Part shown: piece after piece, positions 2,290 to 22,504 of the stretch
How the letters are laid out: each line of letters begins with the position of its first letter
How positions within the stretch are numbered: position 1 is the stretch's first letter
DNA from: Conexibacter sp.
GTDB taxonomy: Bacteria > Actinomycetota > Thermoleophilia > Solirubrobacterales > Solirubrobacteraceae
DNA length: 22,504 nucleotides
Reading direction: 5' to 3'
Assembly: GCA_025964295.1 (NCBI GenBank)
Contig: JAOPZD010000420.1
Span: 1-22,504 of the forward strand
The notes under the pieces: generated by a model
The model's input: the letters and a program-made list of their open reading frames with translations, nothing else
Database searches by the model: none
Told to the model about the DNA's origin: nothing
Program-made: the position numbers and the translations under genes

Positions 2290-3234
2290 TCAGCCCGCGC
2301 CGCGGCTGAGCGTCCGGACCGCGTCGATGACCAGCGCCCAGAAGGCGCCGTGGTCGAGCTGCAGCGCGACCTGCGCGTTGGGCTCCTGGCCGGTGACGCC
2401 GAAGCGGTCGACCACGGTCGCGCCGCGCGTGTGGGTCCCGTGCAGCTCGATCGCGACGTGCGCGTCGACGCAGCCGACGATCGCCGGGTCGATCACGCGG
2501 GCGACCGCGACCGGGTCGTGGACCGGCGCGGCGGGAAAGCCCCAGAGCGACTTGTAGCGGTCGGCGAAGAAGCCGAGCAGGTCGACGACCAGCGTGGCCA
2601 GCGGCGAGCCGATCGCGCGCAGGTCGGCGAGCACGTCCTCGGTCGCCAGCGCCTGGTGGGTGACGTCCAGCCCGCACATCGTCACCGGCAGGCCGCTGGT
2701 GAAGACGACGTGCGCGGCCTCGGGGTCGACCCAGATGTTGAACTCGGCCAGCGGCCGCCAGTTGCCGGTCGCGATCGAGCCGCCCATCAGGACGATCTCG
2801 CCGATCGCGGCGCGCAGCTCGGGGTGCCGGCGCAGCAGCATCGCGACATTGGTCAGCGGGCCGGTCGGGATGATCGTCACCGGCTGCGTCGTCGCGCGCA
2901 GCACGTCGGCCAGGAGGTCGACGCCGTGGCGCGGGTCGACCGCGACCGTCGGCTCGCCGAGGTCGGCGCCGTCCATCCCGGACTCGCCGTGGACCGCGCC
3001 CGCCGTGTCGAGGTCGCCGAGCAGCGGCCCGGCGCAGCCCGCGGCGACCGGGACGTCGCGGATCCCCGCATGCGTGCACGTCAGCAGCGCGTTGCGCGTC
3101 GTCTGCTGCAGCCGGCCGTTGCCGCCGACGGTCGTGATCGCCCGCAGGTCCAGCGCGGGCGACCCGGCCGCGAGCAGGATCGCGACCATGTCGTCGTGGC
3201 CGGGATCGCAGTCCAGGACGACGGGGATCGTCAT
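2290..3234 (-). CDS. Nucleoside hydrolase (inosine-uridine preferring family)
   Basis: A 314-aa protein of the IunH/RihA nucleoside N-ribohydrolase family, which cleaves the N-glycosidic bond of ribonucleosides in salvage. The N-terminus MTIPVVLDCDPGHDD carries the calcium-chelating DxDxxxDD signature (Asp8, Asp10, Asp14, Asp15). Further family landmarks are the ITTVGGN strand, TNVAMLL, EFNIWVDPEAA and PVTMCGLDVTHQ, the last being the conserved region around the third metal ligand and the substrate ribose. The start is the ATG whose ATG/TGA overlaps the Nudix stop by 3 nt; a longer in-frame extension would be internal to the Nudix gene. It is the last gene of the DUF1015-OsmC-Nudix-hydrolase run. 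Exact base preference cannot be read. Confidence 0.93.
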   Translation of the reverse strand: MTIPVVLDCDPGHDDMVAILLAAGSPALDLRAITTVGGNGRLQQTTRNALLTCTHAGIRDVPVAAGCAGPLLGDLDTAGAVHGESGMDGADLGEPTVAVDPRHGVDLLADVLRATTQPVTIIPTGPLTNVAMLLRRHPELRAAIGEIVLMGGSIATGNWRPLAEFNIWVDPEAAHVVFTSGLPVTMCGLDVTHQALATEDVLADLRAIGSPLATLVVDLLGFFADRYKSLWGFPAAPVHDPVAVARVIDPAIVGCVDAHVAIELHGTHTRGATVVDRFGVTGQEPNAQVALQLDHGAFWALVIDAVRTLSRGAG

Positions 3235-3716
3235 GGCGCCGCGCGCGCCAGCCGCTCGAAGAGGTCGGCGAGCATCCGCGCCGTCGCGCCCCACACGAGG
3301 TGGTCGCCGACCACGTAGGTGTCGGTCCGGAACGGCACGCCGCGGCGCATCAGGCGCCGGCGGCAGTAGCCGTCCTGCAGCTCGGCGAGCGTCAGCTCGA
3401 GCACCTCGGCGACCTCGGCCTCGGCGGGCAGCCAGGTCTGGCCGGGCTCGATCAGCCCGACGAAGGGGTAGACGGCGTAGCCGGTGGCGATCGTTGGCGT
3501 CGGCTGCAGCGCGCCGACCAGCTCGACGCCGTCGGGCGCCAGGCCGATCTCCTCGTGGGCCTCGCGCAGCGCGGTCGCGCAGAGGTCGGCGTCCTCCGGA
3601 TCCTGGCGGCCGCCGGGGAACGAGATCTCGCCGGGATGGCGGCGCAGGTCGTCGCGCCGGCGGGTGAGGACGACGGACGGGGCGCCGCCGGCGTCGAGGA
3701 ACAGCGGGACGAGCAC
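3231..3716 (-). CDS. Nudix hydrolase, CoA pyrophosphatase-like
   Basis: Nudix fold protein of the CoA diphosphatase group (NudL/NUDT7-like). It contains TRRRDDLRRHPGEISFPGG, the sequence that typically precedes the Nudix box in CoA pyrophosphatases, and the box itself at about residues 35-60 with the core REAHEEIG that binds Mg2+. The annotated GTG start gives 161 aa, beginning directly at strand VLVPLFLD. The same frame stays open and family-like for at least 27 more codons (LRELLDG...HGRTDAA), but has no ATG, GTG or TTG before a stop codon. Translation may start at a CTG (complement of 3795-3797), making about 188 aa. Located 100 nt after OsmC and coupled to the nucleoside hydrolase by overlap. 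Confidence 0.9.
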   Translation of the reverse strand: MLVPLFLDAGGAPSVVLTRRRDDLRRHPGEISFPGGRQDPEDADLCATALREAHEEIGLAPDGVELVGALQPTPTIATGYAVYPFVGLIEPGQTWLPAEAEVAEVLELTLAELQDGYCRRRLMRRGVPFRTDTYVVGDHLVWGATARMLADLFERLARAAP

Positions 3717-4243: not shown

Positions 4244-5518
4244 TCACGCCAGCGGGTTGAACATCAGTCCAGTTGGCACCTTGGGGTAGAAGAACGTGGA
4301 CTTGGGCGGCATGTTGACGCCCGCCGCCGCGATCTCCTGGACCTGCTTGACCGGGCTGCCGCGCAGGAAGAACGCGCAGTCGTACTCCTTGGACTGCACG
4401 AGCTGCAGGGCTTCGTCGTCGGTGCGCGAGTAGCCGAGGCCGTCGAGGTGGGCGATGTCGTCCTCGGTCATCCCGAGCACGCCCTTGAAGATCAGGGCCT
4501 CGAGGACGGCGGTGTCGAGGTGACGGTAGGGCTCGGGGTAGTCGGCGAGCGCCGCGTCGGCCAGCGCCTGGTCCTTGAGCACGAGGCGGTAGGGCTGCTG
4601 GTGGAAGGAGTCCAGGTAGCCCATGGTCAGCGGCGTCGACGCGGACGGGTCGTCGGGCGGGCGCAGCGCGGACGTGTCGATCGGCGTGATCGCGAAGTGC
4701 TCGCGCAGGTACCGGCCGAGCTTCTGCTGGATCTCCGGCGCCTTGACCTTGTTCAGCAGCCGGTGCGTCGGGAAGATCGTCAGCCCCGGGTCCTGCAGCG
4801 CGACGAGACACATCAGCACATAGCGGTGGTCGCCCTCGCCGCCGATCTCCTCGGCGTAGACGCGCGCGGTCTCGTAGCGGTGGTGGCCGTCGGCGATCAG
4901 CAGCTCGGTCTCGCCGAGCGCCATCCTGACCCGCGCGATCGCGGCGCCGTCGCTGATGCGCCAGAGCTTGTTCAGCGTGCCGTCGGCGTCGGTCGCGGTG
5001 CCCCACGGGTCCTCGGCGGTGAACGGCGCGACCGCGCCCCAGGCCGCGTTGGCCGGGTCGTCGTAGAGGCTGAAGATCGGCGACAGGTTGGCCTGCGTCG
5101 CGCGCGTGAGCCGCAGCCGGTCCTCCTTGGGGCCGGGATGCGTGCGCTCGTGCGGCCGGATCTTGCCGGGGCCGTACTCCTCGACGCGCACGCGCGCGAA
5201 GATCCCGCGCCGCGTGAGCGGCCGGCCGTCGGGGCCGACGTAGTCCTGCTGCAGCGCCCAGACGGCGGGCTCGGCGTCGCGGACGACGGCGCCCTGGCGC
5301 TTCCAGAGGTCGAGCAGGCGCGCGGCCTCCTCGTAGGCGTCGCCCCCGAGCGGCGCCTGCGGCAGGTCGATGTTGACGACGTTGTGCGGCGACCGGGTGG
5401 CCAGCGCGGCCCGCTGCTCGGGGTCGATGACGTCGTAGGGCGGGGCGATCACCGACTGCAGGGAGCCGACGACGCCGAGGTCGTAGCGGAGGGCGCGGAA
5501 GGCTTGGACGTCGGCCAT
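4244..5518 (-). CDS. DUF1015 family protein
   Basis: A 424-aa protein of the DUF1015 family, widespread in bacteria and archaea and still without a settled function. Diagnostic segments are VIAPPYDVI at residues 23-31, PHNVVNIDLP at 44-53, YGPGKIRPHERTHPGPKEDRL at 115-134, and ADGHHRYETA at 209-218, the most conserved block, whose histidines and acidic residues look like a catalytic or metal-binding site. Full length for the family. The start ATG is supported by a TAGATT box 8 nt upstream (leaderless) and by the family N-terminus VQAFRALRYD. It appears to head a four-gene minus-strand operon with OsmC, Nudix and nucleoside hydrolase genes, a mixture suggestive of small-molecule repair or salvage; that link is inference. 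Confidence 0.95.
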   Translation of the reverse strand: MADVQAFRALRYDLGVVGSLQSVIAPPYDVIDPEQRAALATRSPHNVVNIDLPQAPLGGDAYEEAARLLDLWKRQGAVVRDAEPAVWALQQDYVGPDGRPLTRRGIFARVRVEEYGPGKIRPHERTHPGPKEDRLRLTRATQANLSPIFSLYDDPANAAWGAVAPFTAEDPWGTATDADGTLNKLWRISDGAAIARVRMALGETELLIADGHHRYETARVYAEEIGGEGDHRYVLMCLVALQDPGLTIFPTHRLLNKVKAPEIQQKLGRYLREHFAITPIDTSALRPPDDPSASTPLTMGYLDSFHQQPYRLVLKDQALADAALADYPEPYRHLDTAVLEALIFKGVLGMTEDDIAHLDGLGYSRTDDEALQLVQSKEYDCAFFLRGSPVKQVQEIAAAGVNMPPKSTFFYPKVPTGLMFNPLA

Positions 5519-5533: not shown

Positions 5534-6076
5534 CTAGCCGCGGCGCCCGAACTCGTTGACGTAGGTCGCGCCGGAGCGGCCGTTGGGCGCGCCGAGGGCG
5601 ATCCCGATCCCGATCTCGCGGAAGGAGCGGTCCAGGATGTTGCGGCGGTGGCCGGCGGAGTGCATCCAGGCGTTGACGATCCGGGCGGGCGTCGCGGAGC
5701 CGCCCGAGCCCCAGGCGATGTTCTCGCCCAGCGACCACCCGCGCGAGCCGCGCAGGTAGTTCGTGCGCTTGATCCGCTGGGCCATCGTGGAGCCGGCGGG
5801 GGAGACGTGGTCGAAGAAGCGCTCGGCGACCATCAGGTGCGCGTAGCGCCGCGCGGCGTGGCTCAGCGACCGGTGCTCGCGCAGGCGCGGCAGGCCGTGG
5901 CCCGCGCGCTGGCGGTTGAGCAGGCAGAGCGTCGCCTGGCGCACCTGGGCGGCGTGCGCGGCGGACGGCGTCAGGTTCGCGCCGCGGCAGGCGCTCGCCG
6001 CGGACGACGTGGCGGGGAGGGCCGGCAGGATCGCCGCGAGGGCGAGTGCGGGCAGCAGGAATCGGAGTCGGCGCAT
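5534..6076 (-). CDS. Secreted CAP-domain (SCP/PR1/YkwD-like) protein
   Basis: A 180-aa exported protein. Residues 1-28 form a signal peptide (MRRLRF, hydrophobic LLPALALAAILPAL, cleavage near SSAASA). The CAP domain spans about residues 48-177: LCLLNRQRAGHGLPRLREHRSLSHAARRYAHLM, then FFDHVSP (His90), GWSLGENIAWGSG (Glu118), and WMHSAGHRRNILDRSFREIGIG (His143). These are the usual cavity residues of the family. Two cysteines (30 and 51) flank the domain start and could form a disulfide. Bacterial YkwD-type proteins are extracellular and of unclear activity. It is on the same strand as DUF1015 with only a 15-nt gap, although DUF1015 seems to have its own promoter. No strong Shine-Dalgarno is visible. 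Confidence 0.93.
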   Translation of the reverse strand: MRRLRFLLPALALAAILPALPATSSAASACRGANLTPSAAHAAQVRQATLCLLNRQRAGHGLPRLREHRSLSHAARRYAHLMVAERFFDHVSPAGSTMAQRIKRTNYLRGSRGWSLGENIAWGSGGSATPARIVNAWMHSAGHRRNILDRSFREIGIGIALGAPNGRSGATYVNEFGRRG

Positions 6077-6328: not shown

Positions 6329-6402
6329 CGGGACGTGGCGCAGCCTGGTAGCGCACCTGCTTTGGGAGCAGGGGGTCGCCGGTTCGAATCCGGCCGTCCC
6401 GA
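6329..6402 (+). tRNA. tRNA-Pro (anticodon TGG)
   Basis: A complete 74-nt cloverleaf. The acceptor stem CGGGACG (6329-6335) pairs with CGTCCCG (6395-6401), discriminator A at 6402. D arm GCGC...GCGC with AGCCTGGTA loop; anticodon stem CCTGC/GCAGG around the loop TTTGGGA, giving anticodon TGG; T arm GCCGG TTCGAAT CCGGC. CCA is not encoded. Anticodon TGG reads proline codons. tRNA 3' ends are common integration sites, and the region to the right has accessory character. Confidence 0.97.
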
Positions 6403-7193
6403 CTGTGGGGGGAGAACCCTATGACGTTGAGGGTCGCTGACCGCGTCAGGGTCAGCACTCCCGCTGTCGGGGGAGCGTCGCCGGCAGTCATCGCCGCGTG
6501 ACAGCCCGGTGAGGCGGTTGAGGGCGCTGATCACTCGGCGGACTGAGCACCCAGGCGCTCGCCGGCCTGTCGTGCGGCGGGCTGGTGGTCGGGAGCCGAC
6601 ATCGTTCGGGCGCAGCGTGCTGCCGTGGAGGCATGGGCAGGCGTCGATGCCCGCCCCAATCAGGCGCCGCTGCCCTGCAGGGAAGGGAGGACGTTATGGA
6701 CCCGACGGGGCTTGTTCACTCCCGCGTCCGGGGGACCTTTGGGGGTGAGAGCTGTCTACGGCTTCGGAAAGTAGATGGACCGATCGCAAACGGCAGGACG
6801 ACGCCGTCCGTCGCCGATCGGAAGGCGCTCTCATTCCTCATCGCCTGGCCGAGGGCGAAGCCCACTGCGAAGCATCTGTTGCAGCGTGCGGCGATCCCCA
6901 AAAGGATGCCGAGCATCGACAGGCTGTCAAAGTCACTGGGGCCTTCTCGCCGTTCCGCGGCACTTGAGGGGTCTGACGCGAAGAGTCCGCCGCCCCTGGC
7001 TCTTCGTCGCTGTGGCGCCGGTCGGACTAGCTCCGTTAGAGGCCTCACAGGCCGAGGTGGTGCTACGAATCGTCCAGCAGGGCGCGCCGACCGATAAATG
7101 GACCACATCGCTTACTGTTCGCGAGGTAATCGGGCGAAACCCCCTGAACCACCACGGCTCCGCGCGATGCGAATCGTGACCGCGATCCGGCCG
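6403..7193. other. Gene-poor stretch after tRNA-Pro
   Basis: About 790 nt with no reading frame I would defend. Open frames exist on both strands but their translations are rich in Arg, Pro and Ser, match nothing I recognise, and their third codon positions do not show the strong GC bias of the neighbouring genes. A short hairpin, GCTGACC (6436-6442) with GGTCAGC (6450-6456), follows the tRNA but has no T-run. No copy of the tRNA 3' end was noticed here. The stretch may be a decayed part of an integrated element. Confidence 0.4.
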
Positions 7194-8516: not shown

Positions 8517-9230
8517 TCAGCTGCCGTCGGAGGCTCGCAGCTGCACGACTGCGCCTAACGGCCGAGGCGGCGGGCCGTCGAGGCGTCCTCTGTCCAGCGC
8601 CCAGACTTGGTCTGCTCCGTGAAGCTCGGAGAGCTCGGCGGCCGTCATCAGTACCGCGACGCCGTCCGCGGCGATGTCGCGAAGCAGGTCCATGACCTCG
8701 GCTCGGTCGCGGTCCCCGAATCCAGCCACGGGGTCGTCGACGATGATGAGCCGCGGGCCACGCGCAATCGCTTGGGCGATCGCGGCGAGCATGCGCTCCC
8801 CGTCTGACATGTGCTCCCAAGGCATCGAGGCGAGATCCCCGATGCCGACGCGATCGAGGGCTGCACGAGCGCGACGCTGGGCAGTCCGCCATGGGCCGAG
8901 GTGAACGAGCGTCGACATGATCCACGTCAATGCGTCCATGTCCTCGAAGTCGGGTCCGCGACGCGATGCCAGGCCGATCTGGGCCATCAACTTGCCGTCA
9001 CGATCCGGATCGCGCACCAGATGACCATCGAAGAGGACGCGCCCCTGGTCGGGGGCCTGGACGCCCGCGACGATCCTCGCGAGGGTCGTCTTGCCAGCGC
9101 CACGCCGGCCCCAGATGCCACCGAACTCGCCGGCGTGCAGCTCCAGTGACACCTCCCGCAACACATCGACTGCTCTCGGACCGCGCCAGAAGGAGAGGCT
9201 GACCGACTGGACCTGAACGAGCGGCGTCAC
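8517..9230 (-). CDS. ABC transporter ATP-binding protein with altered catalytic motifs
   Basis: A 237-aa nucleotide-binding domain. Walker A is intact (GRRGAGKTT, residues 41-49). Other motifs depart from consensus: the Q-loop region reads IGLASRR with no Gln at the expected place; the signature is MSDGE (141-145) instead of LSGGQ; Walker B ends LIIVDDP, with Asp in place of the catalytic Glu; and the H-loop region reads VLMTAAELSE, with no His. It can probably bind ATP but may hydrolyse it poorly. The gene starts with GTG overlapping the PadR stop by 4 nt. The canonical ATPase and FtsX-type permease of the divergent arm are the obvious partners for a heterodimer with one degenerate site, though this is inference. 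It could instead act alone as a soluble regulator. Confidence 0.9.
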   Translation of the reverse strand: MTPLVQVQSVSLSFWRGPRAVDVLREVSLELHAGEFGGIWGRRGAGKTTLARIVAGVQAPDQGRVLFDGHLVRDPDRDGKLMAQIGLASRRGPDFEDMDALTWIMSTLVHLGPWRTAQRRARAALDRVGIGDLASMPWEHMSDGERMLAAIAQAIARGPRLIIVDDPVAGFGDRDRAEVMDLLRDIAADGVAVLMTAAELSELHGADQVWALDRGRLDGPPPRPLGAVVQLRASDGS

Positions 9231-9805
9231 GGCGCCACCGCTCCGGCGTCGGGCCGTTCCCGGAGATCCTCAAGGGTCCGGCGCAGGTCTCGCAGGAAGG
9301 TCGCCCGCGATGCCACTTCGTTGCGTTCGGCAGCAGCCAGAGCGGCTGCGCAGACCACCTCCCACGGCGCCTGTTCCTTAACCAGCGGGCCGACCTCTTG
9401 TACCCGCAGGTCTCGATGCAGTGCGATGAGCTGGTGCTCGGCGGTGATAACGAGCTCCACCAGCTCGGGCAAATCGCTTTCGCGGGCCGTCACCAACCTA
9501 CGAAACAGGTCCGCGAACGATTCGGGTGGGCAGCGCAGCCATGCTTCATAGCGGCGCTCGCCCTCAGGCGTAGCGACGTAGCGGCGTCGGCTCGGACCGC
9601 CGACATCTCCATCGCTTGCGGCTCGTAACGGTTCGATCAGGCGCCCTTGGCGCAGAACTTCGAGCGCCTTGTACACCGCTCGCGGTGCTGGGACGACGCC
9701 TTCGGGGCCAGACCAGCGTTGTACCTCGTCGACGAGGGAGTACCCGTAGCTCCGCGGGCGACGCCTGACCATGCCCAGCACTGTGAGACGCGTTGATTCC
9801 GACAC
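9227..9805 (-). CDS. PadR family transcriptional regulator
   Basis: A 192-aa regulator. The N-terminal winged helix reads TRLTVLGMVRRRPRSYGYSLVDEVQRW, then VYKALEVLRQGRLIEP and RRRYVATPEGERRYEAWL (residues about 5-95), the standard PadR order of helix-turn-helix and wing. The remaining part (about 95-180) is helical, EHQLIALHRDLR and so on, as in the long PadR-s2 type dimerisation arm. It starts at GTG with AAAGGG 6 nt upstream. A near-duplicate 21-nt element lies at 9815-9835, just before this start, and again in front of the divergent ABC operon. Autoregulation plus control of the transporter is the likely role. PadR proteins commonly repress drug or lipid exporters in response to membrane-active compounds. 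Confidence 0.93.
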   Translation of the reverse strand: MSESTRLTVLGMVRRRPRSYGYSLVDEVQRWSGPEGVVPAPRAVYKALEVLRQGRLIEPLRAASDGDVGGPSRRRYVATPEGERRYEAWLRCPPESFADLFRRLVTARESDLPELVELVITAEHQLIALHRDLRVQEVGPLVKEQAPWEVVCAAALAAAERNEVASRATFLRDLRRTLEDLRERPDAGAVAP

Positions 9806-9814
9806 TTCCGGCCC

Positions 9815-9835
9815 TTTAGAGACACGAGCATATCT
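9815..9835 (-). promoter_or_regulatory. Operator/promoter element copy 1 (PadR side)
   Basis: On the minus strand it reads AGATATGCTC, then GT, GTCTC, T, AAA. It matches copy 2 at 18 of 21 positions. TATGCT within it could serve as a -10 box, giving a leader of about 15 nt before the PadR GTG. The arms AGA and TCT give it imperfect dyad symmetry. Confidence 0.6.
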
Positions 9836-9992
9836 CGTTCAGTGTCCGGGAGGGAACTTCTGCCTCGTGACCAGCCGGCTCTCGAGGAGGCGCTGCCCAG
9901 GGGGTGCTGGCGTAGGCGCTGCCACGGGTGCCGGCGTGCTGCCGCAGTGGCCCGGATCTGCGCCCCCCGTGCAAACATCCGGGTTTTGCGTC

Positions 9993-10013
9993 AGATATGC
10001 TCACGTCTCCAAA
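9993..10013 (+). promoter_or_regulatory. Operator/promoter element copy 2 (ABC operon side)
   Basis: On the plus strand it reads AGATATGCTC, then AC, GTCTC, C, AAA. It is the inverted partner of copy 1, about 180 nt away. TATGCT is a possible -10 for the ABC operon, which would have a leader of roughly 125 nt to the ATG at 10134. Confidence 0.6.
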
Positions 10014-10073
10014 ATGGAGTGTGGTGTCGGTGGCCGAGCGATGCGAAAGACCCAAGATCGAAGATGACGGGTT

Positions 10074-10088
10074 CGGCGCTAAACGCCG
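10074..10088 (+). promoter_or_regulatory. Leader hairpin before the ABC ATPase
   Basis: CGGCG (10074-10078), loop CTAAA, CGCCG (10084-10088). It lies just before the alternative GTG start at 10092 and could influence which start is used. No T-run, so not an obvious terminator. Confidence 0.3.
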
Positions 10089-10133
10089 TCTGTGTCACGA
10101 CCGCAGGCCAGCGTGAGGGCTGAGCGCCTCCGG

Positions 10134-10892
10134 ATGTCAAACGCCGCGGATCTGCCCACCGACACTGGCCTTCACGCGGCGCAGCCGCCTGCGGCGCCGG
10201 TCCTGGAGTTCCGTGACGTTCGGAGGCACTTCGCCGTTGGAGATGAGGTCGTTCGTGCAGTTGACGGCGTGTCCCTTCAGATCGACTCAGGCGTGCTCGT
10301 GGCGCTATACGGACCGTCGGGCTCGGGGAAGAGCACGCTTCTGCGGATCGCAGCAGGAATCGAGACGGCTGACGATGGCGCCGTCCTGGTAGACGGGGTA
10401 GACGTGACCTCGCTTTCGTCCCGGGAGGCGTCGGACTACCGGATGCACGCGCTGGGCTGGGTCGGACAGGAGTCCGACCTCATCGATGGAGCGACCGCCA
10501 TCGACAACGCTGCGTTCAAATTGATCTGCGCCGGGCGCAAGGTTCGAGAGGCGCGGCGAGCCGCCGCGTCCTTGCTCGACGCCGTGGGGTTCTCGCAGCG
10601 GCTCGAACAGCGCGCCGAGACCCTGTCGATGGGCGAGCGCCAGCGCGTCATGATCGCTCGTGCTCTGTCGATGGACCCCAGGGTCGTACTCGCCGACGAG
10701 CCGACAGGCAACCTCGATAGCCGGCGGACCCACCAGGTCCTCGAGCTGCTCAGGGCAACGACCCATCAGCGGGGCATGGCGACCCTGCTGGTCACCCATG
10801 ACGAACACGCTATGGAATACGCCGACAAGGTGTATGCCTTGCAGGACGGAGTGCTGCGCGAACTCCCCACGGAGCAGAGGTCGCGCTCGTGA
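10134..10892 (+). CDS. ABC transporter ATP-binding protein (MacB/LolD type)
   Basis: A 252-aa ATPase with every catalytic motif intact: Walker A GPSGSGKST (60-68), Q-loop GWVGQES (108-114), signature LSMGERQRV (164-172), Walker B VVLADEP with the catalytic Glu (184-190), D-loop TGNLDS, and H-loop LLVTHDE (218-224). This set and the HFAVGDEVVRAVDGVSL start are typical of LolD/MacB/FtsE-like ATPases that drive FtsX-type mechanotransmission permeases. The ATG at 10134 is preferred; an in-frame GTG at 10092 would add 14 residues and no start has a strong Shine-Dalgarno. The gene overlaps the following permease by 4 nt (GTGA), so the pair is surely co-expressed. Confidence 0.95.
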   Translation: MSNAADLPTDTGLHAAQPPAAPVLEFRDVRRHFAVGDEVVRAVDGVSLQIDSGVLVALYGPSGSGKSTLLRIAAGIETADDGAVLVDGVDVTSLSSREASDYRMHALGWVGQESDLIDGATAIDNAAFKLICAGRKVREARRAAASLLDAVGFSQRLEQRAETLSMGERQRVMIARALSMDPRVVLADEPTGNLDSRRTHQVLELLRATTHQRGMATLLVTHDEHAMEYADKVYALQDGVLRELPTEQRSRS

Positions 10893-13471
10893 GCATGGCC
10901 GGTCTAGAGCCCCTCGCACGGGGCCGACCGCGGCTCGGAAGCGTTTTGATGCTGTACGCCGTCAGGTTTCGCCGGCGGTGGGTGGCCGAGCTGATGGCCG
11001 TCTTGGGAATCGCCTCCGGCGTTGCGCTCCTCTACGCCGCGAACGTCGCGTCGACCTCACTGTCTGCTCCGGTCCGCAGCCTGAACGAGGGCCTCGTCGG
11101 AAACAGCCAGCTCCAGCTCCTCTCCCGCGGCGGGGTCGGGATGCGGGAACAGCTCTATGACCGGGTGATCGCGCTTGGCGCCGTCAAGCGGGCGGCCCCC
11201 GTCCTGCAGGTCCCCGGCAACCTCGTCGGCCCGCATGGCGATCGGGGCGTGATCTTCTTCGGTGCCGACCCGCGCATCGTCAGGCTGCGCGGAAACCTGC
11301 TGCAGGGGTTCAACAGCGCTGATGCCGCGAGGCAGCAGACGCTGGTCATCACCGCGCCGGTGGCACGAAGCATCGGCGCGAAGTTCGGTGATGACGTCCA
11401 GTTGGAGATCGCCGGGCGACGGCTCACCGTGCCGGCAGTAGTCGCCGGCCGTGAGCAGGTTGGATCGCTGGCGGACACGTCGATCGCGCTGCTGCCGCTG
11501 CGCTACCTCCAGCGCATCGCCCACAGCGGGCCAACGGTCAGTCGCATCCTTGTTGAGGCCAAGCCTGGGCAGGTCGCGACGGCGAGCCGCGAACTGCGAC
11601 GGCTGGCTGGGGTTGGTGGGGTCGACGTCAGGCCTGCCAACTACGAGAGCCACCTGTTCGACAACGCGGCGAAGCCGACCGATCAGGCGACGCTGGCCTT
11701 CAGCGTCCTCAGTGCGCTCGTCGGTTGGCTCTTCGCGGCTTGCGCGTTGCTCGTCACCGCCGGCGACCGGCGCAAGATGGCGATGCAACAACGCGCGATC
11801 GGGGCCCGGCCGTCGGCGCGTCTGGTGACCTTGCTGGTCGACGCGGCGGTGGTCGGACTGCTCGGCACGGCCGTGGGTCTCGGGGCGGGAGAGCTGCTGT
11901 CGCGGGCTGGGTTCTCCTCGGACGTCAGCTTCCTCTCAGGTGCGTTTCCCGTGGGTGATCAGCGGATCGTCACCTGGCAGAGCGTTGTGATCGCCAGCGC
12001 TGGCGGTCTGCTGGCCGCGACGATTGGCGTGCTCGCCCCGCTTCGAGAAGTCGTTGTCGCCACGATCCCGCATCGGGTGCGCCCGGCCAGCCGAAGGGAG
12101 ACGGCGCCTGCCGTCCGCCGAGGCCAGCGGCCCAACGCCTCGATCCTGCTGAGCGGGCTAGCGTGTCTGGGCGGTGCCACGGCGATCACCGTGCTTGCCC
12201 CTGGCGCGGTCATGGTCGGGCTTGTCCTCCTCGGCGCTTCGCTGGTACTCATGCTGCCCTCGGCGCTCTCGGCGACGATCTCGGGCCTGGAGTGGTGGAA
12301 CCGGCGCGGCCCCATGTCCTGGAATGCCACCGAACTGGCGCTCCAGCACCTCAAGACGCGCAGGTGGCGACCTCGTGCACTCGCGATCACCGCGACGGGT
12401 GCGATCGCCGTGTTCGGCGCCACCGCGCTGCAAGGCGCGCGGGTCAACCTCCAGGCCGGTCTGGACGACCTGACGACCGGCCTCACCGAGACCGCAGATG
12501 TCTGGGCTGCCCCGCGTGGAGCGGGCAGCTCGATCGGGACCGCAACGTTCCCTGCCACCGCGACAACAGCCCTCGCAGGGTTGCCCGACGTTCGAGGCGT
12601 CAGCCTGTACCGCGCCGGGCTTCTTGACCTCGCCGGGCAACGGGCATGGATCATCGGCCAGCCCAAAGACGTTAAGAACCCGATCCCACCTCATCAGGTT
12701 CTCAAGGGCAACGATGCGCGAGCCGCGGACGAGATCAGACGGGGCGGCGCGGCCGCAATGTCACACGCGCTGGCCAAGGACCTTCACCTCCATATTGGGC
12801 AGCGCTTCACCCTCGACACACCCCACCCCGTCACGCTCAAGCTGACGGCAATCACCACGAATCTCGGATGGTCTGCCGGCGCGATCGTCCTCAGTGCCGA
12901 CGACTTCGCGCGCGCCTGGGGCACAACGGCCATCGCCGCCTACCAGTTCCATGTCCGCCCCGGCGCATCGGCGATCGCCGCCCGCCGACAGGTCGCCGAC
13001 GCGCTCGGCCCGCGCTCGCCGCTGCGCGTAGAGACAGGCACCGAGAGAGGCGACCGCCAGCGAGCGATCTCACGCGCCGGTCTGGCGCGCCTGCGAGAGA
13101 TCACAACGTTGACCCTGATCGCCGCCGTCTTGGCGATGGGGGCCGCCATGACGGGGCTGCTCTGGCAGCACCGCGCTGTCGTGTCGAGTCTCAAGGCCCA
13201 TGGACCTCGCACAGGGATGATGTGGCGGATGCTGCTGATCGAGACCGGCGTCCTCTTCGGCGCAGGCGCTGTCGCAGGCGGAGTCTTCGGGCTCCTCGGA
13301 CAGGTTCTCGGTACGAAAGGCGTACAGGTCGTGACCGGCTTCCCAGCGGTCGAGTCGCTGCGCCTAGACGTAGCTGTCGTAACGGTCGCGGTCGTTGTGG
13401 GGGCGTCCTTGCTGGTAGTGATCGTGCCCGGCTATCTCGTCGCCCGGGTTCGACCATCCTGGCGCGGCTAA
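10889..13471 (+). CDS. FtsX-like ABC transporter permease, two-domain
   Basis: An 860-aa membrane protein. The layout is one N-terminal transmembrane helix (about residues 33-55), a large extracytoplasmic domain (about 56-265), three helices around 268-395 (VLSALVGWLFAACALLVTAG, VVGLLGTAVGLGAG, VIASAGGLLAATIGVLAPL), two near 415-465, one near 495-515, a second extracytoplasmic domain, and three C-terminal helices after about 740. That is about ten helices and two FtsX-type units, as in LolE/MacB-related duplicated permeases. Such proteins use ATP hydrolysis to move lipids, lipoproteins or peptides at the outer leaflet. It overlaps the ATPase gene upstream and is followed after 10 nt by the terpene synthase homologue. 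The substrate is unknown. Confidence 0.92.
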   Translation: MSMAGLEPLARGRPRLGSVLMLYAVRFRRRWVAELMAVLGIASGVALLYAANVASTSLSAPVRSLNEGLVGNSQLQLLSRGGVGMREQLYDRVIALGAVKRAAPVLQVPGNLVGPHGDRGVIFFGADPRIVRLRGNLLQGFNSADAARQQTLVITAPVARSIGAKFGDDVQLEIAGRRLTVPAVVAGREQVGSLADTSIALLPLRYLQRIAHSGPTVSRILVEAKPGQVATASRELRRLAGVGGVDVRPANYESHLFDNAAKPTDQATLAFSVLSALVGWLFAACALLVTAGDRRKMAMQQRAIGARPSARLVTLLVDAAVVGLLGTAVGLGAGELLSRAGFSSDVSFLSGAFPVGDQRIVTWQSVVIASAGGLLAATIGVLAPLREVVVATIPHRVRPASRRETAPAVRRGQRPNASILLSGLACLGGATAITVLAPGAVMVGLVLLGASLVLMLPSALSATISGLEWWNRRGPMSWNATELALQHLKTRRWRPRALAITATGAIAVFGATALQGARVNLQAGLDDLTTGLTETADVWAAPRGAGSSIGTATFPATATTALAGLPDVRGVSLYRAGLLDLAGQRAWIIGQPKDVKNPIPPHQVLKGNDARAADEIRRGGAAAMSHALAKDLHLHIGQRFTLDTPHPVTLKLTAITTNLGWSAGAIVLSADDFARAWGTTAIAAYQFHVRPGASAIAARRQVADALGPRSPLRVETGTERGDRQRAISRAGLARLREITTLTLIAAVLAMGAAMTGLLWQHRAVVSSLKAHGPRTGMMWRMLLIETGVLFGAGAVAGGVFGLLGQVLGTKGVQVVTGFPAVESLRLDVAVVTVAVVVGASLLVVIVPGYLVARVRPSWRG

Positions 13472-13481
13472 GCTCGCCTCG

Positions 13482-14588
13482 GTGCTGGCGAGGACTCGCC
13501 AACGAGATCCCGCGCCGCTCTCGCTCGCACAGGTGAGCGCTCTTGGTTCCGCAGCTACGCGGGAGCTCGTTTGGGGCCTTCGACTCGTTCGCGCCACGGT
13601 CGGCCAGTGGCAAGCCCGCGCCCTGGCCATCCCCGACCCCTCGATGCGAAGCAACGCTCTCGCGGCCCTCAGCGACAAGCGCCCGCTGCTGGATGGGGCT
13701 GCACTGTTCTGGATCTTGCCGACCCGGCGACACGGCGAGCTCGTGCAGCTGCTCGTTGCGTTTCAGATCCTCGCCAACTTCCACGACCATGCCGGCGAGC
13801 GCGCAGGCCGCGCCCCCACGGCCATGGAGCCAGCGGGCACCATCCGGACTCTCGCTGCCGTTATCGACGTCGAGCGCCCTTGGGCCGGGTATTTCGGCGA
13901 GTGGCCACCGGCGGATGGTGGATACCTCGACGCGCTGGCCAGCACATGCCGATCGGTGAGCGCTCGCCTTCCCGGATACCCGGCTGCCCGCACGTTGCTC
14001 GTCCAACAGATCCGGCGTGCGCAGGTAATGGACATCGAGCACGGTCCCGCCGCGCGCGACCGGCCGCGACTGCTTCGACACTTCGCAGCGAGCGATCTCG
14101 GCCCAACGGAGGACCTGGAGTGGTGGGAGTTGGCCGCCGGTGCCGCTTCGCTGTTGACAGTGATCGTCACCCTCGCGCTTGCTGCCGACGAGCGCACCAC
14201 GCCTGACGATCTCGACCAGGCGGTCGATGCCTACATCTGGGTCGGGAGCGTAGGCTCGTTGTTGGACAACTACATCGACCAGGCTGACGATGCTCGCACC
14301 GGGGCCCACAACTACCTGAGCTACTACGGATCGCGCCACGATGCGGCTGAGCGACTCGCCAGCCTGATTGACCGAGCGTTATGCAAGGCTCGATCTCTGC
14401 GCCAAGGCGAACGCCACCTGGTCATCGTCGCCTCCATGACGGCCATGTACCTCAGCAGTGGGAGCGCGCGCAGCGAACCACTCCGCGCCTCGACCAAAGA
14501 CCTGATCACCCGAAGCGGATCGCTGACTCGCCTGCTGCTCCCGCTCATACGCGCCTGGCGCATCGCCTACGGCGAGGCCGACGCCTAG
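13482..14588 (+). CDS. DUF2600 / class IB (large-terpene) synthase homologue
   Basis: A 368-aa protein of the DUF2600 family, whose characterised member is Bacillus YtpB, a synthase that cyclises tetraprenyl or larger prenyl diphosphates. From memory of YtpB, landmarks line up along the whole length: RSNALAALSDK (56-66), LLVAFQILANFHDHAGER (90-107), PADGGYLDALASTC (143-156), DLEWWEL (211-217), LLDNYIDQADD (260-270) and NYLSYY (277-282). The second Asp-rich motif is intact. The first, YtpB-like DYLDNLCDR, here reads NFHDHAGER, with its leading Asp replaced. No membrane helix is obvious. It starts with GTG 10 nt after the permease stop. Its stop codon abuts a broken ArdC-like gene on the other strand. 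Product and activity are unknown. Confidence 0.88.
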   Translation: MLARTRQRDPAPLSLAQVSALGSAATRELVWGLRLVRATVGQWQARALAIPDPSMRSNALAALSDKRPLLDGAALFWILPTRRHGELVQLLVAFQILANFHDHAGERAGRAPTAMEPAGTIRTLAAVIDVERPWAGYFGEWPPADGGYLDALASTCRSVSARLPGYPAARTLLVQQIRRAQVMDIEHGPAARDRPRLLRHFAASDLGPTEDLEWWELAAGAASLLTVIVTLALAADERTTPDDLDQAVDAYIWVGSVGSLLDNYIDQADDARTGAHNYLSYYGSRHDAAERLASLIDRALCKARSLRQGERHLVIVASMTAMYLSSGSARSEPLRASTKDLITRSGSLTRLLLPLIRAWRIAYGEADA

Positions 14589-18895: not shown

Positions 18896-19969
18896 CTACT
18901 CGTAGAGGGTCAGCGCGCCGAGGACGATGTAGAGCGCGATCAGCGCCCAGCCTTCGAAGGCGGCCGCTTCGCCGTCTCCGGTGATCTGCCATACCGCGAG
19001 CGCCGACATCAGCAGCGCGCCGATGTAGACGGGGTCCAAGGCGAAGCTCAGCCGGTGGCTGAACAGCAGCGAGATCAGGACGAGGACGGGGTAGAGGAAC
19101 GCGGCGATCTGCGCGACGGAGTTCTTGACGACGCTGATGGCGAGGTCGGACTGTCCCTTGCGGGCCAGCGCAATGCCGGCGACGTTCTCCACCGCGTTGC
19201 CGGCGATCGCCACGATCACGATCCCGGCGAAGGCCTCTGAGACGTGCAGCTGGTCGATGGTGGGGCGCAGCGCGGCGACGAACCAGTCCGAGACGAAGGC
19301 GGCGCCCAGCCCACCGGCACCGAGCAGGCCGGCCGAGATCGCCAGCGGCACGAGCGGGCCTTCGTGTTCCGAGCCGTCGTCGTCTTTCGGCGCCGCGGCG
19401 TCGGCGCGCAGGTAAGGCACGACCCAGGCGAGGTAGACGCCCAGCAGCGCGACCGCGGCGACGGTGGAGATCGCCTGGACGTGGTGGCTGGCGGGATCGT
19501 GGGAGGCCAAGGAGATCCCGACGACCACGATGATGAAGACGGTGACCAGCAGCAGCGTCGCGGTGTCCTGTGGCAGGCGCGGCCGGAAGCGCATGACCGT
19601 CCCGTCGGCCGCCGCGGCGCCGACGACGATGACAGCCCCCAGGACGAGCAGGGCGTTGGCGAACAGCGAGCCGATGATCGAGGTCTGCGCGACCACGACC
19701 TCCCCGGCGCGCAGCGCGAAGATGACGACGAACAGCTCGGGCAGGTTGCCCAGCGTCGACTGCATCACGCCCGTGACACCGGGGCCGAAGCGCCGGCCCA
19801 CCTGCTCGGTGGCGAAGCTGACGATGTGCGCGAGGCCGGCCAGCGCCAGGGCGGCGATCGCGAACGCCAGCAGCGACGCCACGCCGGCGTAGTGAGCGAT
19901 GCCGGCCGCGGCGGTCAGGATGAGCACGACGGCCACGGCCGCCTGTTCGGAGCGTGAGAGGGCAGACAC
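18896..19969 (-). CDS. Calcium/proton (cation) antiporter, CaCA family
   Basis: A 357-aa integral membrane protein of the cation/Ca2+ exchanger superfamily. The two inverted alpha repeats are visible: GVMQSTLGNLPELFVVIFALRAGE (GNLPE at 74-78) and IVIVAIAGNAVENVAGIALARKG (GNAVEN at 257-262), with the Asn and Glu residues that bind the cation. About eleven hydrophobic segments surround them, and the central acidic linker KDDDGSEHEG (195-204) is cytoplasmic or regulatory. It resembles ChaA/CAX proteins. The start is the GTG at 19969 (VSALSRSEQAAVAVV), with AAGG upstream; the longer frame upstream translates to an Arg/Pro-rich sequence typical of non-coding DNA. Likely exports Ca2+ in exchange for H+. 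Confidence 0.92.
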   Translation of the reverse strand: MSALSRSEQAAVAVVLILTAAAGIAHYAGVASLLAFAIAALALAGLAHIVSFATEQVGRRFGPGVTGVMQSTLGNLPELFVVIFALRAGEVVVAQTSIIGSLFANALLVLGAVIVVGAAAADGTVMRFRPRLPQDTATLLLVTVFIIVVVGISLASHDPASHHVQAISTVAAVALLGVYLAWVVPYLRADAAAPKDDDGSEHEGPLVPLAISAGLLGAGGLGAAFVSDWFVAALRPTIDQLHVSEAFAGIVIVAIAGNAVENVAGIALARKGQSDLAISVVKNSVAQIAAFLYPVLVLISLLFSHRLSFALDPVYIGALLMSALAVWQITGDGEAAAFEGWALIALYIVLGALTLYE

Positions 19970-20215
19970 GCCGCTGGCCTTACCCCGACCCGCGGCCCCC
20001 CAACATCGAGCATGGCTGTGTGCCCGCCTCCGAGCCGAGCCGATCGGCCCCGGTAGGCGTCGACGATTGCGAGAACGTCCTGTTCGATCAGCGGTCAGAC
20101 GCGGTCTGCGTCGTCCCGGCGAGGCGGACGGTCTCGGCGGCGGGTCCCAGGGCGGGCGCCGCGGCACCGCCTATGACGGCCGATACGTCAGCGGTACCCA
20201 CCGCGGAACCTCGGC

Positions 20216-20908: not shown

Positions 20909-21808
20909 TCAGCGGTCGGGGAGGTCGAGGGTCTCGTGCTCGGGCACGCCCTCGCCGAGCTCCTGCTCGCGCTCGATCTCGGCGTTGAGCTCGGCGCCGA
21001 ACAGCAGCGCCACGTTGGTCAGCCACAGCCAGACGACCAGGACGATCGCGCCCGCGAACGCCCCGTAGACGGCTCCGACGTCGGCGACCTTGCTGAGGTA
21101 GATGGAGAACCCCGCCGAGGCGACGAGCCACAGGGTGACGCCGGCGACCGCGCCCGGGGTCACCCAGCGGAACGAGCGCTGGCGGACGTCAGGCGTCACG
21201 TAGTAGATGTAGGAGAACACGAGCATCGCGACGGCCACCGCTCCCGGCCAGCGGGCGAGGTCCCAGACGCGGACGACCGTCTCACCCAGCCCGAGGAACC
21301 CCAGGAGATCCTCGGCGAGGTGCCCGCCGATGAAGATCAGGACCAGGCTGATCAGCACCAGCGCCATCAGGACCACCGTGCTGACGATGTCGATGGCCTT
21401 GCGCTTGAGGAACGGCCTGCCGCTGTCGGCTTCGAAGACGACGTTGAGCGCTCGGCGGGCGGCCTCCAGCGCCCCGGTCGTGCCGTACAGCGTGACGACG
21501 ACGCTGATGGCCAGCGTCGTGGCAGCCGTGCCCTTCTGCTGGAGGGCGGCGCGCAGCGAGCTGTCGAGCGGGACGAGCGCCGACGGCGGGACGACGTCGC
21601 GCAGGTATCCGAGGATCGCGTCGTAGGTGGCCGGGTACTGGCCGACCAGGCCGAGGATCGAGACGGCGAGCAGCAGCGCCGGGAACAGCGACATCAGCGC
21701 GTAGTAGGTCAGCGCCGCCGCGTGATGGGTCATCTGGTCGTCATAGAACTCCCGGCCCGTGCGCAGCAGGATGACCGGCGCCGCCCGCAGCTTGCGCCTT
21801 GCGCTCAT
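20909..21808 (-). CDS. YihY/BrkB family inner membrane protein
   Basis: A 299-aa protein of the YihY (formerly BrkB, RNase BN-annotated) family. The family N-terminus FYDDQMTHHAAALTYYALMSLFPALLLAVSILGLVGQ is present (about 20-57), followed by further hydrophobic helices near 85-110 (AATTLAISVVVTLYGTTGAL), 140-160 (VSTVVLMALVLISLVLIFIGG), 180-205, and two more toward the C-terminus (GVTLWLVASAGFSIYLS and AIVLVVWLWLTNVALLFGAELNAEIER). The last signature, LLFGAELNAE, is highly characteristic. Six transmembrane helices are expected. The start ATG directly follows the TAG of the phosphatase gene (TAGATG) with no spacer, so the two genes are translationally coupled. Its cellular function is not settled. 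Confidence 0.94.
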   Translation of the reverse strand: MSARRKLRAAPVILLRTGREFYDDQMTHHAAALTYYALMSLFPALLLAVSILGLVGQYPATYDAILGYLRDVVPPSALVPLDSSLRAALQQKGTAATTLAISVVVTLYGTTGALEAARRALNVVFEADSGRPFLKRKAIDIVSTVVLMALVLISLVLIFIGGHLAEDLLGFLGLGETVVRVWDLARWPGAVAVAMLVFSYIYYVTPDVRQRSFRWVTPGAVAGVTLWLVASAGFSIYLSKVADVGAVYGAFAGAIVLVVWLWLTNVALLFGAELNAEIEREQELGEGVPEHETLDLPDR

Positions 21809-22504
21809 CTAGTGGTCGGCGCCCTCGCTGGCGTGGCGGAGTCTCGGAGGTCCGCCGTGCCAGTCGAGGCAGAGGATGGTGGCGTCGTCGCGAAGCGTGC
21901 CACCGCACGCTTCGACCACGCACCGGGTCAGGCCCTGCACCGCCTCGCGAGGGTGCAGGTGCCGGCTGGCAGTCAGGATCGACATGGCGTCGACGGCTGC
22001 GGCGTTTCGCTCGAGCATCCCGTCGGTGAGGAAGACGAGCCGGTCGCCCGCCCGCAGCGAGAGGTCCTGGACGCGGTAGGTCGCAGACGGCGATGCGGAG
22101 AACGGCAGGTCGGACATCAGGGCCACCCGCTCGGCGCGACCGTCGCGGACGCGGATCGGGGCGGGGTGTCCGGCGTTGACGATGCGCGCGGTTCCCGACG
22201 GGAGATCGATGCGCACGAGTTGGCCGGTGACGAACTCCTCGTCGTCGGCGTAGCCGGCCAGGGCCAGGTGGGCGATGCTCGCCTGCTCGGCGAGGTCGAC
22301 CCCGCGGCGTCGGGCGTTGCGCAACGCTCCGACCAGGACGGTGGCCAGCAGCGCAGCGTCGAGCGTGTGGCCCATCGCGTCGGTCATCGACAGGTGCAGG
22401 GTGTCGCGCTCGAGGCTGAAGTCGAACGTGTCGCCGCCGACGTCGCTGGCCGGCTCCAACCACCCGGCGAGCGTGAACTGCCCCGCCTCCAGCGTGTAAG
22501 AGCT
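21809..22504 (-). CDS. PP2C/SpoIIE-type serine phosphatase, C-terminal domain (runs off window)
   Basis: The last 231 codons of a gene that enters from the right edge. The frame is continuous to the window end, so the reported part is not the start. The catalytic domain reads EPASDVGGDTFDF (metal-binding Asp pair, GGD-DF motif), TDAMGHTLDAALLA (DAMGHG-like), NAGHPAPIRVRDGRA, DRLVFLTDGMLERN, and DDATILCLDW, all in the order of SpoIIE/RsbU-type PP2C phosphatases. They dephosphorylate anti-anti-sigma factors in stress signalling. Upstream sensor or GAF/PAS domains, if any, lie outside. Stop codon TAG abuts the YihY start, so the two share a transcript. The partner anti-sigma factor is not seen in the window. 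Confidence 0.93.
   Translation of the reverse strand, partial: SSYTLEAGQFTLAGWLEPASDVGGDTFDFSLERDTLHLSMTDAMGHTLDAALLATVLVGALRNARRRGVDLAEQASIAHLALAGYADDEEFVTGQLVRIDLPSGTARIVNAGHPAPIRVRDGRAERVALMSDLPFSASPSATYRVQDLSLRAGDRLVFLTDGMLERNAAAVDAMSILTASRHLHPREAVQGLTRCVVEACGGTLRDDATILCLDWHGGPPRLRHASEGADH

Follow-up and report, generated by a model that had tools for sequence, protein, structure and literature searches.

What would a homologue of large-terpene synthases be doing beside an ATP-binding cassette (ABC) transporter that is encoded with two unequal ATPases? The question is raised by a five-gene locus in a 22,504-nucleotide (nt) stretch of Conexibacter sp. (assembly GCA_025964295.1, contig JAOPZD010000420.1), which is here called the window. 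The locus has two diverging arms. The minus-strand arm holds padR (9227..9805), for a PadR-type winged-helix regulator of 192 amino acids (aa), and N2 (8517..9230), for an ABC ATPase subunit of 237 aa that is degenerate on motif inspection and has a counterpart in most relatives. On the plus strand, N1 (10092..10892, 266 aa as listed) encodes a canonical ABC ATPase of the LolD/FtsE type and is followed by a permease of the two-repeat FtsX type (10889..13471, 860 aa) and by a DUF2600 protein (13482..14588, 368 aa), a class IB, YtpB-like large-terpene synthase by sequence. padR and N2 overlap by 4 nt (9227-9230), as do N1 and the permease gene (10889-10892), and a gap of 10 nt separates the permease gene from DUF2600. 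Pfam matches above cut-off were obtained for N1 and N2 (ABC_tran, 104.9 and 82.4 bits), the permease (MacB_PCD, 60.3 bits, and FtsX, 33.8 bits) and DUF2600 (PF10776, 215.2 bits). The window PadR reaches 24.6 bits against the PF03551 cut-off of 27, and its relatives at the same position (ten entries representing nine distinct genes, one gene being seen in two loci) all pass, with 29.7-66.3 bits. The five genes of a preliminary description of this DNA, and the overlaps and short gap between them, are therefore confirmed.

We lean slightly towards a PadR-controlled unit in which a large, C35-type terpenoid would be made and then extracted from the membrane by an asymmetric type VII ABC machine. 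This reading draws on the gene order, the co-evolution of the genes, the YbbP-like fold of the permease and the linked cis-prenyltransferase genes. The preliminary description had proposed the regulated synthesis of a large terpenoid lipid together with its extrusion or sensing. Regulated synthesis with extrusion remains the best-supported reading, with product, transport and regulation standing as predictions. The module thus suggests that these soil actinobacteria produce and transport terpene lipids by a route not recognised before. The link between DUF2600 and the transporter would indicate where the product of the enzyme probably goes and what the transporter probably carries.

The gene set is a real, conserved and lineage-wide module that has been copied repeatedly. 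A search of species genomes with the DUF2600 profile gave 18 loci. The permease adjoins DUF2600 in 16 of these, 15 labelled as actinobacteria and one on a contig labelled 'Ramlibacter'; it does not adjoin DUF2600 in two loci of Eremiobacterota. We also searched 201 genomes of the order to which Conexibacter sp. (G007) belongs and found DUF2600 in 25 of them, at 91 places, with which 16 loci of the species-genome scan overlap. For 90 of these places we obtained regions and annotated them with profiles derived from relatives of the window; the DUF2600 scrap G164:C117 was dropped for lack of a region. A permease lies within 3 kb of DUF2600 at 80 of the 90, even with modules cut by contig ends scored as misses, so the adjacency is not peculiar to this genome. 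When only the 51 places with 8 kb or more of contig on either side are counted, the permease is there at 48 and the full set of PadR, N2, N1 and permease at 46; partners are the nearest within 3-8 kb, and an adjacent module may lend one. For scale, 43 permease-like candidates in one 6.1-Mb genome would, by arithmetic, put about one place in 20 this close by chance. A neighbourhood across Actinomycetota, as had been envisaged, is too wide: in a phylum-wide sample of 396 genomes only the centre genome has DUF2600. At this sampling, DUF2600 within Actinomycetota is mostly confined to Solirubrobacterales. Single genomes hold up to ten DUF2600 matches, some of them partial, and a complete genome of 6,359,369 bp (G100, taken as the Conexibacter woesei type strain) has four, each of them within a module. 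The 'Ramlibacter' contig (L016), a 3.7-kb piece of a metagenome-assembled genome, carries a cut module 58-63% identical to that of the window and is probably misbinned.

The usual form of the module is different from that in the window. With the window included, 58 modules passed the length filters as complete; their partners were chosen by the nearest rule, which picks an unusual partner where two N2 genes or modules are close (L086, L093, L096, L101, L145, L149 and L170, all kept). The order PadR-N2-N1-permease-DUF2600, in one direction, is found in 42 of the 58, and the divergent arrangement of the window is the sole one of its kind. The divergent layout, at first taken as the design, is thus the exception. 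The tree places the DUF2600 of the window together with a single sequence from G123 (taken as Baekduia alba) and a single one from G147 (taken as a strain labelled C. woesei), with support of 100/92. Another order, DUF2600-N1-permease with no N2 seen, occurs in L089, L167, L171, L174, L176, L178 and L186, some of which are near contig ends; five of these seven fall in one nine-row set of the tree, whose remaining rows are contig-end cases. Clustering of the flanks for further constant partners gave none, the widest clusters reaching six genomes. No relative of the permease was found on viral contigs in a one-sequence search that reaches close relatives only, and the plasmid search gave a single distant DUF2600, in Anoxybacillus.

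The genes of the module have also diverged together. Across the 58 modules, the distance matrices of each of eight gene pairs agree beyond what is obtained when paralogues are shuffled within genomes, with none of 500 shuffles reaching the observed value. For DUF2600 and the permease r is 0.69, against at most 0.40 in the shuffles. When the other genes are allowed for, the partial r is 0.51 for DUF2600 and the permease, 0.32 for the permease and N1, and 0.36 for the permease and N2, and it falls to 0.06 and -0.10 for DUF2600 with N1 and N2. The co-evolution of DUF2600 and permease thus appears direct and specific, as expected if the permease handles the product of the synthase. These values also bear on a different view, in which the transporter would carry another cargo, such as a lipoprotein, a peptide or a phospholipid, and DUF2600 would merely be co-regulated, its terpenoid stiffening or shielding the membrane under the same stress. 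Transporter genes do occur with no DUF2600 nearby (25 of 74 family permeases; 20 regions of this kind, L119-L138, were fetched), and in sequence searches LolE, LolC and LolF are the first matches to the permease profile. Against this stand the partial correlations, which tie DUF2600 to the permease and not to the ATPases, and L135, a region lacking DUF2600 that has a cis-prenyltransferase in its place (the scan took in ten neighbouring open reading frames (ORFs), drawn from 9 of the 20 regions). We consider another cargo quite improbable.

The synthase itself is clearly assigned to its family. The window DUF2600 scores 215.2 bits against a cut-off of 25 and covers profile positions 3-328 of 328, and a profile of 26 DUF2600 sequences finds the solved tetraprenyl-beta-curcumene synthase BalTS (5yo8) with an E value of 2.1e-60. 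By sequence, DUF2600 is a class IB synthase. The motifs given for YtpB and BalTS are DYLDNLxD for the first Asp motif and DY[FLW]IDxxED for the second (PMC7839719). The second reads DNYIDQADD in the window, a close but not letter-perfect match, and of 86 sequences that reach 900 nt or more, the window's among them, all keep D266 and D270 and 83 keep D262; only L086, L101 and L170 have Glu in place of D262. The first motif reads NFHDHAGE, with the first Asp changed to Asn, the second kept and Glu as the last acid; D102 and E106 are kept in 86 of 86. The likeness to YtpB and BalTS (5yo8, 6loo, 6lop; PMC7839719) therefore includes the Pfam family, the second Asp motif and the later acid pair of the first. 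The genetic setting differs: Bacillus ytpB is described in a ytpAB operon and feeds the cyclase SqhC (PMC11708026), whereas DUF2600 of the module is tied to a transporter. The substrate would be within reach. Since MK-7(H4) is reported as the main menaquinone in C. woesei and Solirubrobacter (PMC3035278, PMC10722151), heptaprenyl diphosphate is presumably available in these hosts. We know of no role assigned to DUF2600 in actinobacteria.

The genes near DUF2600 in other modules are informative about its chemistry. The 25 carriers have 29 cis-prenyltransferase genes between them, and DUF2600 is no more than 7 kb from 8 of these, where 0.5 would be expected. Six copies (PF01255; L095, L099, L104, L106, L175 and L183) are only 86-183 nt away, and all five genomes with more than one cis-prenyltransferase have at least one copy near DUF2600. 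Protein scans of the window covered 30 of its 105 listed ORFs, and no cis-prenyltransferase was found among those scanned. Trans-prenyl synthases were rejected as module genes, with 0 of 54 within 7 kb of DUF2600 in the same carriers. Squalene-type cyclases were likewise rejected as constant partners: 13 strong matches in 12 of the 25 carriers (13 carriers when a partial match in G157 is counted) include none within 7 kb, and several carriers, among them the single-contig genomes G100 and G123, gave no clear cyclase. A P450 gene, possibly for a tailoring enzyme, directly follows DUF2600 in L080, L143, L146 and L158 (two genomes), as confirmed by Pfam for L158 and by sequence clustering for the others. 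In L085, L112 and L114, where DUF2600 has no ABC permease, the nearby genes include one for an MMPL transporter and one for another protein that is apparently secreted; the MMPL assignment comes from Pfam for L112 and from clustering for the others, and the DUF2600 match is partial in L112 and L114. An MMPL gene also adjoins a complete module in L153. The P450, cis-prenyltransferase and MMPL neighbours point to prenyl-lipid chemistry and transport and not to one fixed product. Members of a further protein family, of which the four inspected by eye start in a signal-like manner, are found near L099, L113, L167, L172, L174, L177, L178, L180, L183 and L185, in six genomes. The three members scanned (L113, L174, L177) have no Pfam match, and the family is a possible carrier or surface partner.

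The transporter is, by its sequence features, a type VII ABC system. The permease has the FtsX and MacB_PCD domains, and its ATPase partner is of the LolD/FtsE/MacB class. In the AlphaFold2 model of the permease (predicted local distance difference test score 79.4, predicted template modelling score 0.77), ten membrane helices are predicted, as counted by eye from the secondary structure, and two MacB/LolC-like external domains lie between transmembrane helices (TM) 1-2 and TM7-8. The nearest solved fold is YbbP (9ge6/9ge7), with a highest Z of 24.2 and a Foldseek E value of 8.9e-21; families that these fold searches do not list are not thereby excluded. Type VII ABC machines are known for lipoproteins, drugs and cell-wall enzymes, and since 2025 also for lipid extraction. 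For YbbAP-TesA of Escherichia coli, extraction of hydrophobic compounds from the membrane has been reported (PMC12646458), and, as described there, this system shares with the module the type VII architecture, the ten helices, the two MacB/Lol-like external domains between TM1-2 and TM7-8, and a lipid enzyme as gene neighbour. The differences are also substantial. YbbA is present as two copies of one protein, whereas the module encodes the unequal pair N1/N2; TesA works outside, whereas the synthase, which by eye has no signal peptide, should act inside; the module has PadR control; and identity in the structural alignment is about 12%. No TesA-like hydrolase was found among the scanned window ORFs. 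Membership of the YbbAP-TesA family was rejected since no linked TesA was found among the ORFs scanned, though the topology and fold match the YbbP type. We give about an even chance to the view that the module functions as a lipid extractor of the YbbAP type, one in which the two ATPases are unequal and which is supplied by a YtpB-type synthase.

The other type VII systems are less close. LolCDE and MacB share the FtsX-type permease fold and the LolD/FtsE-class ATPase, and LolE, LolC and LolF are the best profile matches. The module differs in having two repeats in one chain with linker helices and one degenerate ATPase, and its hosts are Gram-positive, as is reported for C. woesei (PMC3035278). 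BceAB-type transporters resemble the module in being type VII, in having ten helices in one chain and in a link through heptaprenyl diphosphate to YtpB. They raise the alternative that the locus is a defence against envelope-directed antibiotics, in which the transporter would free lipid carrier intermediates from a cell-wall antibiotic, DUF2600 would drain heptaprenyl diphosphate, the cis-prenyltransferase would refill the carrier pool and PadR would sense the stress. BceB has one external domain, however, whereas the model has two, and it is farther from the model (Foldseek E value 1.9e-10) than YbbP. BceAB-type transporters have a sensor kinase partner, as the name of the BceABS structures indicates, and neither a BceS-like kinase nor a response regulator was found among the scanned window ORFs. 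Membership of the BceAB group was rejected on the two external domains and because no kinase was found among the ORFs scanned. In addition, a published finding is that accumulation of heptaprenyl diphosphate left BceAB activity unchanged, and up to ten divergent modules in a genome would be odd for a defence system. We thus regard such a defence as unlikely.

The unequal ATPases are the second unusual feature of the module. The window N1 keeps all catalytic residues, with the signature LSMGE. Its best NCBIfam match is LolD with 185.6 bits, below the equivalog cut-off of 307.75, and FtsE (169.6 bits) is also below its cut-off. Since homology begins near residue 37, the true start of N1 may be further in. 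N2 has kept Walker A, but its Q-loop (LASRRG) has lost the Gln, its signature is MSDGE, its Walker B has DD for DE and its H-loop has Ala for His. The catalytically altered ATPase that had been noticed on the padR arm is thus borne out by the motifs. All four of Lys, Gln, Glu and His are kept in 70 of 74 N1 and in 0 of 68 N2 (window included), although the sorting by two profiles, of which that for N2 was built from degenerate proteins, is partly circular. Among the 68 N2, His is lost in 67, Gln in 62 and Glu in 33, and Lys is replaced by Arg in 26. The pairing with the permease is likewise regular: within 2.5 kb upstream of 76 full-length permeases (fetched regions and window), N1 and N2 are found together for 62, N1 alone for nine and two N1 for none. 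The degenerate ATPase therefore does accompany the permease.

Two clades, labelled by hand from the DUF2600 tree, differ in how N2 has changed. In the clade of the window (24 modules), Glu is replaced by Asp in 22 and His is lost in 24, the Walker A Lys and the signature Ser are each kept in 22, and the third residue of the N1 signature is altered in 19. In the other clade, N2 keeps Glu in 29 of 34 and has lost Lys and the signature, so this clade appears to have reached degeneracy by a different path. Covariation between the N1 signature and the N2 Glu is weak (P 0.03, uncorrected for kinship). The pattern of Glu changed to Asp, His lost and an altered partner signature has been described for the degenerate site of type I exporters (PMC7756269), which the window-clade pair resembles, though N2's own signature is also changed. 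In the heterodimeric exporters TM287/288, TmrAB and TAP, as described in that source, the Glu-to-Asp, His-less ATPase likewise faces an altered partner signature; these are type I exporters, however, and the transporter of the module is type VII. The type VII entries FtsE, YclH, YknY and YtrE of B. subtilis each give one ATPase listed twice (PMC11466899), and no degenerate ATPase pair in a type VII machine turned up in the open-access literature listings that we searched. Should a type VII permease indeed carry a conserved pair of one dead and one live ATPase, this would represent a new mechanical type.

N2 could have another role. It may be a regulatory, ATPase-like partner of PadR, with homodimers of N1 driving the pump, and N2 would then tune expression or replace one N1 and so switch the pump off. 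We retain this alternative mainly because N2 tracks PadR most closely of all (r 0.83, partial r 0.62), a tie that may reflect a joint regulatory role or mere position as neighbours. It would also account for the pairing of padR and N2 on the other strand in the window, for the permeases that have N1 and no N2, and for the frequent loss of N2's own signature. In L086, L101 and L170, N2 is in its usual place and a second padR-N2 pair lies on the other strand behind DUF2600, which would also fit. However, the partial correlation of N2 with the permease (0.36) is as strong as that of N1 (0.32), the adjacency of padR and N2 in the usual operon would alone make both travel together, and the window-clade N2 mostly keeps the Walker A Lys and signature Ser, like known degenerate partners. 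Thus a regulatory N2 seems rather unlikely to us, and we favor N2 as a subunit of the extracting machine.

The control of the module was addressed through a 21-nt element in the 286-nt intergenic region. Copy 1 (AGATATGCTCGTGTCTCTAAA, 9815..9835, minus strand) faces padR-N2 and copy 2 (AGATATGCTCACGTCTCCAAA, 9993..10013, plus strand) faces N1-permease-DUF2600. The copies are inverted and identical at 18 of 21 positions, and a pair as good was obtained in none of 500 dinucleotide shuffles of the region. The pair had been described as flanking the module; it exists, but is placed inside the divergent promoter region, with one copy before each arm. No other site in the window matches the element core at up to two mismatches. 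The hexamer TATGCT within the element (9996-10001 in copy 2) resembles a -10 box. The pair looks like a duplicated promoter/operator, one copy per arm, to which PadR may bind, and the doubling would keep the divergent arm under the same control.

Recurrence of the element is limited to near relatives. L177 (G123) and L179 (G147) have an undivided operon with a single copy ahead of padR, and neither genome has a further site when up to one mismatch is allowed; at no mismatches the element is found in 2 of 189 loci. It is not carried by the second module of G147, L172 or L141. Of ten genomes searched at up to one mismatch, six are without a site, and in two others the sites (G001, contig C83; G004, contig C99) are on contigs without their DUF2600 matches; the element thus marks the close kin of the window and not all modules. 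At two mismatches most sites look like chance. A related form, GAAATGCTCCCGTCTT, is identical in G100 (C1:2065354-2065369) and G053 (C8:198387-198402), about 60 nt before N2 of related modules. A search for an operator common to all modules gave none: in the sequences that precede 53 padR genes, the leading 8-mers are rich in GC and barely rise above mononucleotide shuffles (12 against at most 11). A module-specific element gives a handle on the inducing signal.

Returning to the make-and-extract reading, we propose the following sequence of events. DUF2600 would ionise and cyclise a long-chain prenyl diphosphate; the likeliest candidate is the C35 heptaprenyl diphosphate needed for MK-7 menaquinones, and some paralogous modules would obtain a different chain from a dedicated cis-prenyltransferase. 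The very hydrophobic product would partition into the cytoplasmic membrane. The permease, a YbbP-like pseudo-dimer, would dock the catalytic N1 and the degenerate N2, giving one hydrolytic ATP site and one that is mainly structural, and its ATP-driven opening and closing would pull the terpenoid from the outer leaflet by mechanotransmission. PadR would bind the GATATGCTC-N-YGTCTC element over the promoter and repress the genes until a ligand appears; in the window, where padR-N2 is divergent, the element is present twice, so both arms would share one control. More broadly, and only tentatively, Solirubrobacterales might possess an undescribed, multi-copy machinery in which each paralogous module has its own terpenoid and its own asymmetric YbbP-like extractor, yielding a switchable repertoire of surface terpenoids and defining a heterodimeric branch of the type VII systems. 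This wider picture is possible though doubtful.

The identified neighbours of the module are ordinary. An Rfam scan found nothing besides a tRNA-Pro(TGG) gene (6329-6403), about 2 kb to the left of the module. Other neighbours on that side encode an acyl-CoA dehydrogenase (172-1650), a nucleoside hydrolase (2290-3294), a DUF1015 protein (4244-5518) and a CAP-domain protein (5534-6076). To the right lie genes for a calcium/proton exchanger (18896-20167), a BrkB/YihY membrane protein (20909-21808) and a SpoIIE-type phosphatase (21809-22459).

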